Shown in pieces: positions 2,987 to 10,141 of a stretch of 10,525 nt of DNA (positions are counted from its first letter, which is position 1; every line of letters begins with the position of its first letter). Under the pieces are notes generated by a model. That model had not been told where the DNA came from, searched no databases, and was given only the letters and a program-made list of their open reading frames with translations. Source of the DNA: an uncultured Bacteroidales bacterium (lineage in GTDB: Bacteria; Bacteroidota; Bacteroidia; Bacteroidales; UBA932); contig CAMHFA010000020.1 in the NCBI GenBank assembly GCA_946184255.1, forward strand, positions 1-10,525. The letters are read 5' to 3'. The translations under genes were made by a program, and so were the position numbers.

Positions 2987-3745
2987 ATGACATCTGGAAC
3001 TGTCTTCAGCATAGAGGAATTCGCAATCCATGACGGCCCTGGAATACGTACCACTGTTTTCCTTAAGGGTTGTCCCCTGCGTTGTACATGGTGCCATAAT
3101 CCCGAGGGACAGGGTTTCGAACCCGAAACGATGGTTAAAAAGGGAGAGAAAAGCGTCTGCGGGGAAAGATTGTCCCCCGAAGAACTGGCGTCCAAACTAC
3201 TTAGGAACGAGGAAATATTCAAGATGAACGGAGGTGGCGTGACCTTCACCGGCGGAGAACCGTTATCACAGGCGCAGTTCCTGTTGGAAGTACTTGAAAA
3301 ACTCGACGGAAGGATCCACACCGCGATTGAGACAAGCGGTTACGCCCCGAAGGAAGTATTCAGGATGGTGACAGATAAGGTTGACCTTGTCATGATAGAC
3401 ATAAAGATGGTTGATCCGAAGCGGCACATGGAGTGGACAGGGCAGAGCAATGCGCTTATTCTCAGCAACCTGGAGACCTTGATTGGTTCAGGAAAACCAT
3501 TCATCGCAAGGATTCCCCTGATTCCTGGCGTCAATGACGGCAGGGAGAACCTCGAAGCTACCGCTGCGCTGCTGGAAGGAGCCACCGGTCTCCAGAGGGT
3601 GGAACTTCTTCCCTACCACAAGACCGCCGGTGCGAAATACCCAATGGTCAGCCGTGAATATCTTCCCGGCTTCGACACTGAAGTCCCACCGAGGCTGGAC
3701 ACTGAACCGTTTGAAAAGAGAAACATAAAGACAATGATACTATGA
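2987..3745 (+). CDS. Radical-SAM glycyl-radical-enzyme activating enzyme (short, PflA-like architecture)
   Basis: This activase uses a [4Fe-4S] cluster and S-adenosylmethionine to abstract hydrogen from the radical glycine of the partner enzyme encoded next. Its 252 residues contain the cluster motif C29-x3-C33-x2-C36 (GCPLRCTWCHNPEG), preceded by the family signature IHDGPGIRTTVFLKG. The SAM-binding GGE motif lies at residues 89-91 (GGGVTFTGGEPLSQ). ETSGYA, DLVMIDIKMVD and RIPLIPGVND are typical for this family. Only about 45 residues separate the CxxxCxxC motif from the GGG strand, and they contain a single extra cysteine, C58. The ferredoxin-like insert with two auxiliary clusters, usual in activases of dehydratase and decarboxylase GREs, is therefore absent. 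It overlaps the GRE gene by 4 nt (ATGA), indicating translational coupling, and is probably the first gene of the operon. Confidence 0.95.
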   Translation: MTSGTVFSIEEFAIHDGPGIRTTVFLKGCPLRCTWCHNPEGQGFEPETMVKKGEKSVCGERLSPEELASKLLRNEEIFKMNGGGVTFTGGEPLSQAQFLLEVLEKLDGRIHTAIETSGYAPKEVFRMVTDKVDLVMIDIKMVDPKRHMEWTGQSNALILSNLETLIGSGKPFIARIPLIPGVNDGRENLEATAALLEGATGLQRVELLPYHKTAGAKYPMVSREYLPGFDTEVPPRLDTEPFEKRNIKTMIL

Positions 3746-5811
3746 ATGAGAGACTTGATGCCCTCAGGACCTATCTGCTTGAGAAAAAGCACCATGCCTT
3801 CGTAAAAACAGCGGAAGAGGCCGGGATTGCGGACTTGAACGAACGTTTTGCCCGCGAAGGAACTCCTGACCAGATGCGAAGCGCAACCGTCTTTTCGGAG
3901 ATGATGAAGAAGCAGGATCCGGTTATCCTCCCAGGTGAAAAGATTGTCTTTACCCGCACCATCAGGGACGTCCCTTTTATCTACACCGAAAAGGAATGGG
4001 AAGGAATAAAATCCACCCATTATATCCATGAGCGCGGCACTGTCAGCAACATCAGCCCTGACTATGAGACCACCATCCGACTTGGGCTCGAGGCACGGAA
4101 GGATGAAGTCAAGGCACGACTGGCGAAAGGGAACACTGGAAAAGATGGAAAGATATTCCTGGAATCTGTCCTCACATGCATCGATTCCCTCCAGGACCTG
4201 GTACACCGTTATGAGGAGAAAGCCCGCGAGATCGGCGAGGAGGACACCGCGGCAGTGCTTGCCAACGTCCGTACAAAGGGTGCTGAGACCTTCCGGGAAG
4301 CCCTTCAACTCCTTCGTATCATCCACTTCGCAATCTGGGCTGCTGACAACTATCACAACACCCTGGGCCGGTTTGACCAGTACATGTACCCATATTACAG
4401 GCATGACATTGACAACGGCATCCTGACCCCGGGAGAGGCCTTCGACCTTCTGGAGGAATTCTTCCTGACCTGCAACAAGGATAGTGACTTCTACCCCGGA
4501 ATGCAACAGGGAGACAACGGCCAGAGCATAGTGCTGGGTGGCAGGGATGCCGACGGCAAATATCTTTTCAACGAACTTTCGGAAATGTGCCTTAAGGCCA
4601 GCTACGAGCTAAGGCTTATCGATCCGAAGATCAATATCAGGGTGGACAGCCGCACTCCGGACGAAATCTTCGAGATGGGGTCACGGCTCACGAAAATAGG
4701 GCTGGGATTTCCACAGTACAGCAACGACGACGTAGTAATCCCAGGGCTTGTAAGGAAGGGCTACTCAGAAGAGGACGCCCGGAACTATGTAGTTGCAGCA
4801 TGCTGGGAATTCATAATCCCGAAGGTGGCGATGGACATAGTGAACATCGACGGCCTTTCCCTGGCAGCCTGCGTTAAAGACGCCCTTCCCGGACTGAAGG
4901 AATGCAAGGACTATGGATCCTTCTATTCCCTTGTCGAAAAGGAGATCAGAAAGGAAGCCGACCGCATCTGCGCCAGGCATAAGGACCTTTACATGATTCC
5001 ATCTCCGATGATGTCCCTCCTGATGGATGGTACTATAGAGAGGGCAAAGGATATCTCACTAGGCTGCAAGTACAACAATTTCGGAATACATGGTACCGGA
5101 CTCGCCACTGCAACCGACTCCCTGGCTGCCATAAGGAAATATGTCTTCGAAGAGAAAACTGTCACTCCGGAGAGGCTGCTGGCAGCTCTTGAGGCCGACT
5201 TCAAGAACGATCCCGAGCTGAAGGATCTCCTCCGGAAGGAGGCTCCTAAGATGGGCCAGGACATAGATTGGGTAGATTCTATCGGCACCGACCTGCTTGA
5301 CTCCTTTGACAAAGCCCTGGAAGGCAGGCATAACGAAAGGGGTGGCATTTACAGGGCAGGTACCGGAACTGCAATGTATTACATCTGGCATGCCCGTGAC
5401 CTTGGTGCTACGCCGGACGGACGCACTGCCGAGGAAAATATCCCGGCGAACTATTCACCGAGCCTTTTCATGAAACAGAAGGGACCCATTTCGGTGATCA
5501 AGTCGTTCTCCAAGCCCCACCTGCAAAGGGTGATAAACGGAGGACCGCTGACCCTTGAATTCGACCAGACGGTCTTCAGCAACGAAGAGAGTATCCGCAA
5601 GCTGGGAATGCTGGTAAAAACATTCATCACCCTCGGAGGACACCAGCTTCAGCTCAACACCGTGAACCGCGAGGAACTCCTTGATGCAAAAGCCCATCCG
5701 GAAAACCATCGCCAGTTGATAGTCAGGGTCTGGGGATGGAGCGGCTATTTCGTCGAACTGGACGAATGCTACCAGGACCACGTGATCAGCAGGATAGAAT
5801 TCGAAGTGTAA
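3742..5811 (+). CDS. Compact glycyl radical enzyme of the PFL/diol-dehydratase superfamily, substrate unknown
   Basis: This is a cytosolic, oxygen-sensitive radical enzyme of 689 residues; common relatives have about 760-850. Seen in order: a shortened N-terminal helical region; GRFDQYMYPYY (209-219); GFPQYSNDDVVIPGL; the thiyl-radical loop NYVVAACWEF with Cys354 and Glu356; ATPDGR (556-561); and the C-terminal glycyl loop VRVWGWSGYFVELD, with radical Gly665 lying 24 residues from the end. The Cys-x-Glu pair is shared with choline trimethylamine-lyase, glycerol/propanediol dehydratase and arylacetate decarboxylases, and argues against pyruvate formate-lyase, which has Cys-Cys. Both loops are unusual: ACWE replaces GCVE, and WGW replaces S/A-G-Y. 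Neighbouring sugar transporter and arabinofuranosidase genes suggest a carbohydrate-derived substrate. Superfamily is certain. The reaction, perhaps dehydration or other C-O/C-C cleavage of a polyol or sugar, is inference. Confidence 0.95.
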   Translation: MNERLDALRTYLLEKKHHAFVKTAEEAGIADLNERFAREGTPDQMRSATVFSEMMKKQDPVILPGEKIVFTRTIRDVPFIYTEKEWEGIKSTHYIHERGTVSNISPDYETTIRLGLEARKDEVKARLAKGNTGKDGKIFLESVLTCIDSLQDLVHRYEEKAREIGEEDTAAVLANVRTKGAETFREALQLLRIIHFAIWAADNYHNTLGRFDQYMYPYYRHDIDNGILTPGEAFDLLEEFFLTCNKDSDFYPGMQQGDNGQSIVLGGRDADGKYLFNELSEMCLKASYELRLIDPKINIRVDSRTPDEIFEMGSRLTKIGLGFPQYSNDDVVIPGLVRKGYSEEDARNYVVAACWEFIIPKVAMDIVNIDGLSLAACVKDALPGLKECKDYGSFYSLVEKEIRKEADRICARHKDLYMIPSPMMSLLMDGTIERAKDISLGCKYNNFGIHGTGLATATDSLAAIRKYVFEEKTVTPERLLAALEADFKNDPELKDLLRKEAPKMGQDIDWVDSIGTDLLDSFDKALEGRHNERGGIYRAGTGTAMYYIWHARDLGATPDGRTAEENIPANYSPSLFMKQKGPISVIKSFSKPHLQRVINGGPLTLEFDQTVFSNEESIRKLGMLVKTFITLGGHQLQLNTVNREELLDAKAHPENHRQLIVRVWGWSGYFVELDECYQDHVISRIEFEV

Positions 5812-5838: not shown

Positions 5839-7167
5839 ATGGCAAAAGTCAGAGGAAAAATGTTCTATATCGCCTTTGTCGCTTCCCTGGGAGGACTCCT
5901 CTTCGGGTTCGACACGGCGGTAATCTCGGGAGCAGAGCAGGCTATCCAGAAAATCTACGGCTTGTCCAGCTTTGCACATGGTTTCACAATCGCTACAGCA
6001 CTGATCGGAACGATTATCGGTGCATTCATCTGTGACCGGCCTTCAGAGAAGTACGGAAGAAAGAAACTGTTGATTGTCATCGCGTGGCTGTATCTGATCT
6101 CTGCCATCGGAAGCGCCACGATTGTCAATTGGTACTCGTTCATGTTCTTCCGTTTCATTGGAGGTCTTGCAGTGGGTGCATCCTCGGTAGTAGGACCCAT
6201 GTACATTGCTGAGATCTCCCCTTCAGACTGGAGAGGACGTTTCGTGGCTTTTTTCCAATTCAACATAGTCCTGGGAATAGTCCTGGCCTACATTTCCAAC
6301 TTCCTGGTCAAAGGAGTTCCCCATGACTGGCAATGGATGATCGGCATAGAGGCCTTCCCCGCCATGTTGTTCGCCACCCTTCTGGTAACCGTTCCGGAAA
6401 GCCCGCGCTGGCTTGTCAAGAAAAACCGCCAGCCAGAAGCCAAGTCCATCCTTGGCATGATCGGCGAACCAAACGTTGACGGTGAGATAAGGGAAATCGA
6501 AGAATCCCTGCACGCTACCGCGGACGCCGGGGACCGGCTCTTCCAGAAGAAATACGCCATTCCGGTACTTATTGCCTTCCTTATCGCAACTTTCAACCAG
6601 CTCACCGGTATCAATGCAATCCTGTACTATGCTCCGAGAATATTCGAACAGTCAGGAGTCTTTGCTGAAGGGGCGATGGTCCACTCGATCATAGTAGGCC
6701 TGACGAACCTCGTCTTCACCATGCTGGGCATGTCTCTCATCGACAAGGTGGGGCGCAAGCAACTTCTGCTTGTAGGAGCAGTCGGAATGTTCATCGCCCT
6801 GTCCATGGTTTCCATCGGTTTCAAATACAATCTCATCCACGGCTACTATATGCTCCTCTGCCTGATGGGCTACATAGCCTTCTTCGCTATGTCCCTTGGA
6901 GCGACCATCTGGGTCGTGATCTCCGAAGTGTTCCCGAACAGTGTCAGGGCAAAAGGCCAGATGCTAGGCAGCATGACCCACTGGGTCTGGTCCGCCCTCC
7001 TGACCTGGTTCTTCCCTGTGCTCTTTAAGGACGGACGGGAATCCTTCATCTTTGGATTCTTTGCATTGATAGCCCTCGGAAGCCTGGTGTTCGCAATCAA
7101 ACTGCCCGAGACAAAAGGCAAGTCGCTGGAACAGATCCAGAAAGAACTGTTAGACAAAAAGTCCTGA
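5839..7167 (+). CDS. Sugar porter family MFS transporter (proton:sugar symporter, XylE/AraE-like)
   Basis: This inner-membrane transporter of 442 residues has twelve predicted helices and a central cytoplasmic loop. Sugar-porter motifs are complete: GGLLFGFDTAVISG (18-31), where Asp25 matches the proton-coupling Asp of XylE; GRK after TM2; PESPRWL before the loop; QLTGINAILYYAP (254-266); DKVGRK in the second half; and PETKG at the C-terminus. Of the XylE sugar-contact residues Q288/Q289/N294, the first is Asn253 here, while Gln254 and Asn259 are retained. The substrate is probably a monosaccharide such as a pentose, but specificity cannot be read from these motifs. It starts 27 nt after the GRE stop behind an A-rich leader with no clear Shine-Dalgarno, and ends 1 nt before the next ATG. 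This places it firmly in the operon as the likely importer of the sugar processed by its neighbours. Confidence 0.94.
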   Translation: MAKVRGKMFYIAFVASLGGLLFGFDTAVISGAEQAIQKIYGLSSFAHGFTIATALIGTIIGAFICDRPSEKYGRKKLLIVIAWLYLISAIGSATIVNWYSFMFFRFIGGLAVGASSVVGPMYIAEISPSDWRGRFVAFFQFNIVLGIVLAYISNFLVKGVPHDWQWMIGIEAFPAMLFATLLVTVPESPRWLVKKNRQPEAKSILGMIGEPNVDGEIREIEESLHATADAGDRLFQKKYAIPVLIAFLIATFNQLTGINAILYYAPRIFEQSGVFAEGAMVHSIIVGLTNLVFTMLGMSLIDKVGRKQLLLVGAVGMFIALSMVSIGFKYNLIHGYYMLLCLMGYIAFFAMSLGATIWVVISEVFPNSVRAKGQMLGSMTHWVWSALLTWFFPVLFKDGRESFIFGFFALIALGSLVFAIKLPETKGKSLEQIQKELLDKKS

Positions 7168-7168
7168 C

Positions 7169-9571
7169 ATGAAAAGAACACTCTGCATTTGTGCCGCATT
7201 GGCTGCATTCTGTGTCGGAACTGCCGCCCAGGACAGGATCTCGGTTGATCCAGGCAAAGTGATCAACCATGTCAGTCCCCTCCTCTACGGGTCCGGAATG
7301 GAAGATGTCAACCATGAGGTCTATGGAGGAATTTATAACCAGAGAATCTTCGGAGAAAGCTTTGAAGAAGGGGCAAAGGTGACCGGAATCACCGGATTCA
7401 CCAGATTCGATTCAATGTGGCACGGAGTAGGAGACCGCGTCTATCCTACCGTCAACAACGTTTCTTCTAAGCTGATGATGGACCAGCCTGAAACAGGAAC
7501 CGGGAAGGTGGCGGTGGACATCAGGTTCGAAAGCATCCGCCCCGGCACGGCAGGACTGCTCCTTCACGCATCAAACGCAAAGGAGGGCCCCGAGAACATC
7601 AAGGCCTACGAATTCGGCATCTCTGCTGTCGGCAACCGCTTCACTCTGTGGAAGGTTGACGGAGGAAGGCAGGAAATAGGCAAAGTCAACCTTCGCTTCG
7701 ACCCTTGGGAATGGCACCGTCTCGAAATCGATTTCAAGGGAAACAGTTTCAAGGTTTCATTGGACGGAGACTTGATCTTCGTCGCCACGGACCATGAGAG
7801 TCCGTTCACCAAAGGTCAGATAGGACTAAGGACACGTGATGCCGACGCTTCGTTCCGGAATCTCCGCCTAGAAGACGGGAACGGCAATAGGAGCATTCCT
7901 CTCAACCGTGAAAGCGAGTTCGAGGTCAGTTCCATGTGGCGGCCGTATGCTGCAGGAGCAACTGAATATTCCTTCTCCCTTAACCGCGAAGATCCCTACA
8001 ACGGGGAGCAGTGCCAGGTTATTGAGAACAGAGGCAATGGCAGGGTCGGAGTCACCAACATGAGCCTGAACCATTGGGGTATAGGAATAAAGAAAGGCCA
8101 GGTGTTCAAAGGTGACTTCTTCGCCAAAGGAAATGCCGGAAGTCTCTGGGTGGCACTTCAGGACGAGGAAGGAACGAGGGAATATGCCCGCACAAAGATT
8201 GGTACCGTCTCCGGAGGATGGAAGAAATATTCCTTCACCCTGAAGTCAAATGCCACGGATCCCAAGGCCCGTTTCGCAATCTATATTGAAGGAAAGGGTA
8301 AGGTCATGCTGGACCAGGTGACCTTGATGGGCACAGGAACCGACCTCTACAAGGGTTATCCTTTCAGGGCAGACATCGCTCAAGGACTTGTGGAAGAAGG
8401 CCTGACCTTCCTACGCTACGGAGGTTCAATGACCAATGCCAAGGAATATTCATTCAAGCAGATGACAGGTCCCCGCGACAAGCGCCAGCCCTACAGGGGA
8501 CAGTGGTACCACTTCTCGACCAACGGTTTCGGAATAGTCGAATTCGTCCAGGTGGCTGAAGCCTGTGGCTTCACTCCCTCCTTCGCTATCAACATGGAAG
8601 AAGAGCCTGAAACAGTGGCATTCATGGTTGAATACCTCAACCGGGGTGCTGACACTGAGGGAGGACGCCAGAGGATAGCCGACGGACATCCGGAACCCTA
8701 CGGGGTAAAGTACATAGAACTAGGCAACGAGGAGTGTATATTCTGGACCATCAAGGAAAACTACCAGCATTATATCGACCGCTTCAACCTTCTGGCCGAC
8801 GCAATGCTGAAGGTGGATCCATCCCTCGAACTCGTCTGCTCGGCATGGTGGAGGACCGACCTCAAGCCCCTCATGGAGATGGTTTTCAAGGGGATAGACG
8901 GCAAGGCCGCATGGTGGGACCTTCACACAACGACGGATTCCTTTGCCGCGGCACTCAGGGTTGACCCTACCCTGGACCAGATGAAAGAATGGTTCCTCGA
9001 ATGGAATCCCGACACCAAAATGAGGATAGCGATCTTCGAAGAGAACGGTGCGACACACAATGTGGAGAGGATGCTCGGACATGTGGTGAACCAGAACGCA
9101 GTACGCAGGCACGGCGACTGGGTGCTTACATCAAGCGCAGCCAATGCCCTGGAACCTTATCTCCAGAACGATAATGCCTGGAATCAGGGCCAGGTATTCT
9201 TCACACCCTCCCAGGTCTGGGGGATGCCCCCGTTCCATGCCCAGAAGATGGCTTCTTCCCACCACCAGAACAACCTCGTTGAATGCAAGGTGGAAGGAGG
9301 ACTCGATGTGACCGCCACTGTCAGCGATGACGGAAACTGCGTCATCCTCCATATAGTCAACCTGGAGAACAGGGAAAGACCGGTACAAGTGGATGTGAAA
9401 GGCTTCGGAAAGCCCTCGTCGATTAAGGAAATATCCCTAAGCGGAGGCCTTAAGGACGTCAATTCTCCTGCCGAACCACTAAAGATTTCACCAGTTGAGC
9501 GAAAACTTGACAATCTCGGCTCGGTCTTTGCTAAACCATATTCATACACACTGGTAGAAGTGCGTAAGTAA
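7169..9571 (+). CDS. Exported GH51-type alpha-L-arabinofuranosidase-like glycoside hydrolase with extra beta-sandwich domains
   Basis: This predicted retaining glycosidase releases non-reducing furanosyl residues, usually L-arabinofuranose. Its 800 residues begin with a type I signal (MKRTLCICAALAAFCVGTAAQ) and no lipobox, so a periplasmic or secreted location is likely. A GH51-like N-terminal strand (LLYGSGMEDVNHEVYGGIYNQ) is interrupted by a LamG/DUF1080-like concanavalin domain (about 100-235) and a CBM4/9-like sandwich (about 245-390). The TIM barrel follows (about 395-680), with FLRYGGSMTNA, YHFSTNGFGIVEF and acid/base Glu521 in ELGNEE. The likely nucleophile is Glu624 in AIFEENGATHN. 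A C-terminal beta-sandwich ends the protein. Pairing with an MFS porter instead of SusCD proteins suggests it handles small oligosaccharides or glycosides in the periplasm. Family is fairly sure. The exact furanoside (arabinose, or another pentose or hexose furanoside) is not. Confidence 0.9.
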   Translation: MKRTLCICAALAAFCVGTAAQDRISVDPGKVINHVSPLLYGSGMEDVNHEVYGGIYNQRIFGESFEEGAKVTGITGFTRFDSMWHGVGDRVYPTVNNVSSKLMMDQPETGTGKVAVDIRFESIRPGTAGLLLHASNAKEGPENIKAYEFGISAVGNRFTLWKVDGGRQEIGKVNLRFDPWEWHRLEIDFKGNSFKVSLDGDLIFVATDHESPFTKGQIGLRTRDADASFRNLRLEDGNGNRSIPLNRESEFEVSSMWRPYAAGATEYSFSLNREDPYNGEQCQVIENRGNGRVGVTNMSLNHWGIGIKKGQVFKGDFFAKGNAGSLWVALQDEEGTREYARTKIGTVSGGWKKYSFTLKSNATDPKARFAIYIEGKGKVMLDQVTLMGTGTDLYKGYPFRADIAQGLVEEGLTFLRYGGSMTNAKEYSFKQMTGPRDKRQPYRGQWYHFSTNGFGIVEFVQVAEACGFTPSFAINMEEEPETVAFMVEYLNRGADTEGGRQRIADGHPEPYGVKYIELGNEECIFWTIKENYQHYIDRFNLLADAMLKVDPSLELVCSAWWRTDLKPLMEMVFKGIDGKAAWWDLHTTTDSFAAALRVDPTLDQMKEWFLEWNPDTKMRIAIFEENGATHNVERMLGHVVNQNAVRRHGDWVLTSSAANALEPYLQNDNAWNQGQVFFTPSQVWGMPPFHAQKMASSHHQNNLVECKVEGGLDVTATVSDDGNCVILHIVNLENRERPVQVDVKGFGKPSSIKEISLSGGLKDVNSPAEPLKISPVERKLDNLGSVFAKPYSYTLVEVRK

Positions 9572-9589: not shown

Positions 9590-10141
9590 ATGGAAAAACT
9601 GAACCATCCCGCCATCCTGGTCGTCGACATGCTCAACGACTTCGTGACCGGCGCCCTTGCATGCGACCGCGGCAAGGCAATCGTACCCGCAACAGCCCGT
9701 CTTCTCAGAGCAGCTCGTGAGAAGGGTGTACCCGTGATTTTCTGCAACGATGCCCACATCCCCGGAATAGACCGTGAACTGAAGATCTGGGGAGACCACG
9801 CAATAGCAGGCACCCCGGGTGCCGAAGTCATCCCTGAACTGGAGCTCTGCGACAAGGACTTTGTAGTACCCAAGAGACGTTACAGCGGCTTCTTCCAGAC
9901 CGACCTGGACATCCTTCTGAAGGAACTTGGAGTCAAGACCGTCGTTATGACCGGTCTCCATGCCCACATGTGCGTCAGGCACACTTCCGCAGATGCATTC
10001 TGCCTGGGTTATGATGTTGTAGTCGCAAAGGAAGCAACAGACTCCTTTACCGAAGAAGACTATCTGAACGGCCTCGCTTATCTGAAGACCTGCTACGGCG
10101 CCGACGCTTACTCTAATGAAGAACTGATTGCAGCCTTCTAG
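9590..10141 (+). CDS. Isochorismatase/nicotinamidase-like cysteine hydrolase
   Basis: This cytosolic hydrolase has 183 residues, the usual size for the family, and no signal peptide. The catalytic triad is Asp13 (ILVVDMLNDF), Lys95 (VVPKRRYSGF) and Cys128 (TGLHAHMCVRHT). Asp54, His56 (NDAH) and His70 (GDHAIAGTPGAE) fall where nicotinamidases bind a metal ion, so it resembles the metal-dependent amidase branch more than plain isochorismatases. The second halves of the nicotinamidase metal motif (DWHP, HxSF) are not conserved, so nicotinamide is not a safe substrate. Known family reactions are hydrolysis of amides, carbamoyl groups or vinyl ethers. It is the last gene of the operon, 18 nt after the glycosidase stop and just before the terminator, so it may act on a product or cofactor of the GRE pathway. 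That link is inference. Confidence 0.88.
   Translation: MEKLNHPAILVVDMLNDFVTGALACDRGKAIVPATARLLRAAREKGVPVIFCNDAHIPGIDRELKIWGDHAIAGTPGAEVIPELELCDKDFVVPKRRYSGFFQTDLDILLKELGVKTVVMTGLHAHMCVRHTSADAFCLGYDVVVAKEATDSFTEEDYLNGLAYLKTCYGADAYSNEELIAAF

Follow-up and report, generated by a model that had tools for sequence, protein, structure and literature searches.

What does a glycyl radical enzyme (GRE) do when both of its radical-site loops carry tryptophan and its gene lies beside a sugar porter? The question is raised by a stretch of 10,525 nucleotides from an uncultured Bacteroidales bacterium (contig CAMHFA010000020.1; the whole stretch is called the window below), which encodes a 689-residue GRE with the motifs W-G-W and A-C-W-E. 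According to the available text of a review (PMC11574389), many abundant gut GREs have no assigned function. We find that this enzyme belongs to a coherent GRE family with a diagnostic signature, present in named isolates, and we put at roughly one in two the probability that its members are radical C-O eliminases whose substrate, a monosaccharide both free and unphosphorylated, is supplied by the adjacent porter (by an ABC importer in Bacillota), L-arabinose or a related pentose-like aldose being the likeliest candidate. The features of the enzyme are the following (the handles L and G denote individual loci and genomes).

3742..5811, + strand: GRE of the W-G-W / A-C-W-E family, 689 amino acids, ATG start (from the reading frame, Pfam, loops, structural model and tree)
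4048..4050, + strand: Asn103 codon; the residue aligns with His164 of glycerol dehydratase (clade and non-clade alignment)
4798..4812, + strand: codons of the active-site loop A353-C354-W355-E356-F357 (motif position, clade alignment)
5725..5751, + strand: codons of the glycyl loop R662-V-W664-G665-W666-S-G-Y-F, residues 662-670 (clade alignment)

The open reading frame (ORF) contains no internal stop, matches the Pfam models PFL-like (PF02901, 2.5e-100) and Gly_radical (PF01228, 5.9e-20), and is the sole PF02901 match in the genome that holds the window (1.44 Mb, 58.7% complete). The domains, the conserved Gly and Cys, the predicted fold and a partner activase are all present, and the protein is a member of the GRE superfamily, Gly665 being the presumed radical site. 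The AlphaFold2 model (pLDDT 93.7, pTM 0.92) predicts an ordinary ten-stranded barrel GRE; the 50 Foldseek matches listed for this model are all GREs, with glycerol dehydratase first, and identity is low throughout (18-27%). The initial annotation, made from the sequence of the window alone, had described the loops ACWEF and RVWGWSGYF in a 689-residue ORF and had considered the protein compact and, by virtue of Cys354-x-Glu356, of the dehydratase/lyase type; all of this holds. The C-x-E motif is found in 87/87 distinct clade rows, and the clade ORFs span 649-784 residues with a median of 687 (four fragments excluded; some starts are over-extended), compared to 746-847 residues for the full-length GREs outside the clade that were aligned, with the exceptions of L091 (668 and 687 residues) and L084 (726 residues). 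Pyruvate formate-lyase was rejected as an identity, since the loop is A-C-W-E here versus C-C-V in E. coli PflB, so that there is no Cys-Cys pair.

A scan of GTDB contigs supplied the best 80 of 591 confirmed stretches; identity to the query is 40-95% for L002-L074 and falls to 32-34% at L075-L081. Together with sequences from further genomes, the clade set comprised 91 sequences, 87 of them distinct by the last 300 residues. All 87 keep A-C-W-E, including Cys354, and 84 of 85 rows keep W-G-W with Gly665 (two fragments stop short of the glycyl loop and are not counted here). The lone exception is L022, which has W-D-W, with Asp at the radical glycine, in an ORF that runs to the contig end; in L032, the GRE is split into two ORFs of 222 and 446 amino acids. 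Both cases may reflect assembly error or decay. The initial annotation had taken the two Trp-bearing loops to suggest a distinct clade, provided that close homologues keep the Trp residues and that the protein does not cluster at high identity with a characterised group. The homologues do keep them, and sequencing error or drift as their source is ruled out by the clade-wide conservation. Among 17 aligned non-clade GREs, Trp occurs at position 355 in L096 (GCWEV), at 664 in L095 (RVWGF) and at 666 in L099 (RVTGW), and none of the 17 has two of these Trp residues. A tree of 59 rows recovers the 36 clade rows as one group (SH-aLRT 100, stem 0.95); it should be noted that this tree was obtained by a quick method, and that long branches among the other 23 rows make the outer order unsure.

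By record title, the hosts of the clade are Bacteroidota, Verrucomicrobiota, Thermoguttaceae, many Bacillota, a Treponema (fragment) and a Gastranaerophilales member, and the named isolates are Diplocloster agilis, D. modestus, Ructibacterium gallinarum and Clostridium transplantifaecale. The clade GRE was found in 12/299 genomes sampled from the family of D. agilis and in 5/38 from that of R. gallinarum. A first look at the D. agilis genome (G061, 5.7 Mb) gave 20 candidate GRE-like stretches. Close plasmid-borne relatives were sought and rejected: tblastn over plasmids returned 136 records, all under 60% identity, the highest value among the 15 matches listed, spread down the ranking, being 32.1%.

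All NCBIfam GRE equivalogs scored (HypD, CutC, HpsG/HpfG, indoleacetate and hydroxyphenylacetate decarboxylase, PRK09983) fall far below their cut-offs, the best being HypD with 288.9 versus 1100 bits, and a named equivalog identity was rejected on these wide margins. The clade is thus distinct, being monophyletic in the quick tree, 18-27% identical to the 50 solved chains listed and below every equivalog cut-off, and no high-identity clustering in any characterised group appeared in the NCBIfam scores, the tree or the Foldseek matches listed. That the protein is a divergent member with a characterised activity (glycerol/propanediol dehydratase, HypD, CutC, YbiW or PflD) would agree with the same fold and the C-x-E motif; given the missed cut-offs, the separate clade, the replacement of His by Asn103 and neighbours that do not fit those pathways, we find this scarcely credible. 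Judged by its sequences, the clade is apparently a GRE family of the C-x-E eliminase type without a characterised member, and no paper on a W-G-W / A-C-W-E GRE family was found in the literature searched, which excluded preprints and most subscription journals.

By sequence, glycerol dehydratase, diol dehydratase and PflD rank highest among the PDB relatives. Glycerol dehydratase (1r8w) and 1,2-propanediol dehydratase (5i2a/9rco) share the fold, the C-x-E motif, the glycyl domain and the partner activase; they are first and third among the Foldseek matches listed, and 1r8w and 5i2a are first and second by sequence. However, they are ~100 residues longer, 25-27% identical and have His in place of Asn103, and the loops of 1r8w, 5i2a and 8yjo are RVAGYSA and GCVE, as opposed to W-G-W and A-C-W-E in the clade; those of E. 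coli YbiW are RVAGYSA and GCIE. YbiW and PflD, described in the available text of PMC12441222 as ring-opening GREs acting on 1,5-anhydroglucitol- and 1,5-anhydromannitol-6-phosphate, are like the clade in being C-x-E GREs, and they cut a pyranose C-O bond. Conversely, they are only 23-25% identical, fall outside the clade (which groups with neither in the quick tree) and take phosphorylated substrates after uptake by the phosphotransferase system, whereas the porter beside the clade GRE would import its sugar without phosphorylation. Other short GREs of 668-726 residues with glycosidase genes nearby, i.e., that of a Persicobacter plasmid (L084) and two more in Ructibacterium (L091), differ in their Cys loops (GCNW, ACCT and SCMG, without Glu) and glycyl loops (ITGF, MYGF, IGGF). 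In L084 (8950-11130) and L098, GCNW or GCQW replaces C-x-E, with Trp two residues past the Cys, and the L084 gene adjoins GH47 and GH5-like genes.

In the active site, position 103 is Asn in 85/85 clade rows that have the column, compared to His in 16/17 non-clade rows and Arg in PflB; His at the position of glycerol dehydratase His164, which may be a defining eliminase feature, is absent from these clade rows. In an alignment of 56 sequences, the stretch N245-x-D247-x-D249-x-Y251 to D258-N259-G260, together with D294, K296, N298, R300 and Q325, is invariant, a polar pattern that would suit a polyhydroxylated substrate. The initial annotation had linked the bulky Trp residues to a separate substrate pocket, a possible role; each Trp also turns up singly in one uncharacterised GRE outside the clade (L096, L095 and L099). 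Trp355 sits between the catalytic Cys354 and Glu356 in sequence, where, in the usual GRE loop geometry, the side chain of the middle C-x-E residue would point away from the substrate; instead of lining the pocket, this Trp may pack against the glycyl loop. The clade-invariant N103, D247, D249, D258, N259, K296, N298, Q325 and H450 seem to be stronger pocket candidates.

The remaining genes of the locus bear directly on the substrate:

2987..3745, + strand: GRE-activating radical SAM enzyme, 252 amino acids, CxxxCxxC present, no ferredoxin-type insert (Pfam Radical_SAM 5.1e-21)
5839..7167, + strand: XylE-like sugar porter of the major facilitator superfamily (Sugar_tr 4.6e-107; best PDB matches are D-xylose-proton symporters)
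7169..9571, + strand: divergent GH51-like protein of the alpha-L-arabinofuranosidase type, 800 amino acids (Alpha-L-AF_C 8e-13, ASD1_dom 1.2e-7; PDB GH51 8e-16)
9590..10141, + strand: hydrolase of the isochorismatase fold, whose gene ends the apparent operon (PF00857 2.8e-43)

The activase ORF precedes the GRE and overlaps its start by 4 nt, and the gaps after the GRE are 27 nt to the porter, 1 nt to the GH51-like gene and 18 nt to the isochorismatase-fold gene; because of this spacing, the five genes from the activase to the hydrolase look like one operon. The activase scores 252.7 bits against TIGR02494 (cut-off 174.35). An activase was detected in 67/74 clade loci, within ~240 nt of the GRE in 60 of them, at -1.1 to -1.9 kb in six and at +2.4 kb in L070; none was found at L013, L022, L033, L036, L040, L051 and L073.

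The most constant neighbour in Bacteroidota and Verrucomicrobiota is the porter, which follows the 3' end of the GRE in 20/20 such loci with room for it (in L006, just 36 nt remain past the GRE). It starts -78 to +117 nt from the GRE end in 19 loci, the ORF start of L010 being called further inside. XylE-like porters are a family of neutral-sugar symporters. Only one or two porters at E<=1e-20 were found in each of five genomes searched (two in the window genome), so that the adjacency of porter and GRE is no base-rate effect. Sugar-releasing enzymes recur as well. GH51 relatives above 100 bits lie within 8 kb of the GRE in the window and in 8/73 other loci (L002, L003, L004, L007, L008, L009, L032, L073), and GH127 relatives occur in 10/73, from both Bacteroidota and Bacillota (L005-L009, L021, L032, L037, L042, L052; the L042 gene scores 270.5 bits to the GH127 catalytic domain); arabinofuranosidase-type genes of one or the other family are thus present in 15/74 loci, the window counted. 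Aldose epimerase relatives occur at up to 8 kb in eight loci, and where a sugar importer has a mutarotase next to it, the enzyme may well act on a free aldose. A family scan of 85 of the 166 listed same-strand neighbours found 83 families, of which Aldose_epim was the commonest (7), followed by Raffinose_syn (5), Alpha-L-AF_C (5), ABC_tran (4), DUF4867 (3) and GH127 (3); microcompartment shell genes were absent from the 25 families listed of these 83. For DUF4867, the available text of PMC11968277 proposes a ring isomerase in ketose metabolism, for which no activity was found.

Taken together, the near-fixed porter partner and the arabinofuranosidase-type neighbours leave a short list of candidate substrates, which makes the function directly testable. 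With genes for a sugar transporter and for sugar-releasing enzymes next to its own, the GRE probably starts a new route of plant-sugar breakdown, and the substrates raised by the initial annotation (pentoses, pentitols and aldonates) fit this neighbourhood. We consider it likely that the clade enzyme is a carbohydrate eliminase, and we lean slightly toward its acting on free sugar; in that case, a radical entry point would be added to carbohydrate fermentation. In the proposed mechanism, the activase would take H from Gly665, the glycyl radical would generate a Cys354 thiyl radical, and this radical would abstract H from a carbinol of the sugar, with the C1-H of the pyranose hemiacetal as the most likely site; Glu356 would assist loss of the C2 hydroxyl, and the product radical would take the H back. 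The aldopyranose would thereby become a 2-deoxy-aldono-1,5-lactone in a redox-neutral entry step. This reaction itself is possible but doubtful, and so, with somewhat more doubt, is the extended proposal that a cross-phylum GRE family dehydrates free aldopyranose at C1-C2 to 2-deoxy-aldonolactone as the first catabolic step, the sugar being neither phosphorylated nor isomerised.

By analogy with glycerol dehydratase, C1-H abstraction with C2-OH loss would turn a pyranose into a 2-deoxy-lactone, or an alditol into a 2-deoxy-aldose. The former is favoured by the aldose epimerases, the arabinofuranosidases and the SGL-family proteins, the latter by deoxyribose-phosphate aldolase (DERA) and aldo-keto reductase (AKR). 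In the clostridial loci of the two Diplocloster species (L024, L027), the GRE neighbours are a LacI-type regulator, a zinc-dependent alcohol dehydrogenase (Zn-ADH), an FGGY kinase, DERA and AKR, as well as a ureidoglycolate-lyase-like cupin, an SGL-family propeller and an MFS_2 transporter. L104 has the row AKR-activase-GRE-SGL with convergent DERA and Zn-ADH, and in R. gallinarum L091 (1565-16520) three GREs with activase-type genes share one orientation, and SGL, FGGY, Zn-ADH and DERA genes as well as one of GH36 type lie among them. Each of these four loci thus has SGL, DERA (TIGR00126 ~230 bits, cut-off 117.3) and Zn-ADH, and three each have FGGY (L024, L027, L091) and AKR. The four DERAs, together with two others, form a subfamily apart from the remaining paralogues (support 1.0); its rows are L127, L129, L130 and L131 with L126 and L128, the L128 gene lying ~10 kb from two other GREs. 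In L091, the second GRE has a PFL-like Cys-Cys (SACCTF) and the third has SCMG without Glu.

These loci are where an alditol dehydratase finds its evidence: an aldose would be reduced to a pentitol, the GRE would dehydrate the terminal C1-C2 diol to a 2-deoxypentose, and phosphorylation and DERA-type cleavage would yield acetaldehyde and glyceraldehyde 3-phosphate. The nearest solved relatives, among the matches listed, are glycerol and diol dehydratases, and the separate DERA subfamily agrees with such a pathway. However, among the 73 loci of the first set, DERA was found near the GRE in just two, the window operon lacks a reductase, a kinase and an aldolase, the epimerases and arabinofuranosidases suggest an aldose, and a similar cassette exists without a GRE; we therefore hold this alternative to be possible but doubtful. 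The FGGY kinases of L024, L027 and L091 also bear on two further alternatives. That the eliminated substrate is not a neutral free sugar but a sugar acid, a sugar phosphate or some other component of the plant wall (e.g., an acid derived from pectin) is suggested by them, by a rhamnogalacturonase-type neighbour in L045 and a beta-helix neighbour in L016, and by the action of YbiW and PflD on 6-phosphates, as given in the available text of PMC12441222; the fixed XylE-like porter of the Bacteroidota/Verrucomicrobiota loci and the kinase-free window operon make it unlikely. A radical aldose-ketose isomerase, which would abstract C2-H, cleave the ring C1-O bond as YbiW does and return H to give a ketose, would be a chemically small step from the YbiW/PflD reaction, and the FGGY genes are xylulokinase-like; cofactor-free isomerases, however, are widespread, AraA being one that the window genome encodes, so that we regard it as highly improbable.

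Elimination on a free aldose, which we prefer, has several observations weighing against it: (i) contig C18 of the window genome (G000:C18) carries both L-arabinose isomerase and a GH51 match stronger than the one in the window, which implies an ordinary L-arabinose route there and makes a pentose relative released by GH51/GH127-type enzymes as likely a substrate as L-arabinose (AraA had no match in 3/11 genomes searched, G004, G034 and G064); (ii) DERA in four GRE loci suits the alditol pathway better; (iii) in G034, the porter lies upstream on the opposite strand; (iv) in many Bacillota loci the neighbours are mixed or unrelated, e.g., threonine synthase, glutamate synthase and DNA methylase; (v) the SGL protein has no lactonase match in PDB, its best match being an NHL propeller, which weakens it as a firm lactonase; and (vi) G111 has the Zn-ADH/SGL/FGGY/AKR/DERA set with no GRE found in the 35.3 kb examined. 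The cassette is therefore no proof of a GRE pathway or product; what it does indicate is catabolism of a sugar, in which 2-deoxy or lactone intermediates may take part.

Several minor observations concern the neighbouring genes. The isochorismatase-fold gene is also found near the GRE in L002 and L003. All 20 Bacteroidota/Verrucomicrobiota activases found (listed as the window, L001-L012, L014-L017, L019, L032, L035 and L041) lack the CxxCxxC ferredoxin-type insert, as against 45/47 other clade activases that have it, the two remaining being L067 (a 180-residue fragment) and L065 (an over-extended ORF with the pattern further in); the absence looks like one loss. AraR was rejected as the identity of the GntR/LacI-type regulator of L005, since its PDB matches cover only the DNA-binding domain (E 3e-5 and weaker) and say nothing of the effector. 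Two related genes lie just upstream of the GRE in L013 (2251-5110), one of them metallo-beta-lactamase-fold by Pfam and possibly a lactonase. Diverging from the GRE operon, positions 1-2894 of the window (- strand) hold a 121-residue ORF without a Pfam match and ORFs that by eye resemble an RND efflux pump and its adaptor.

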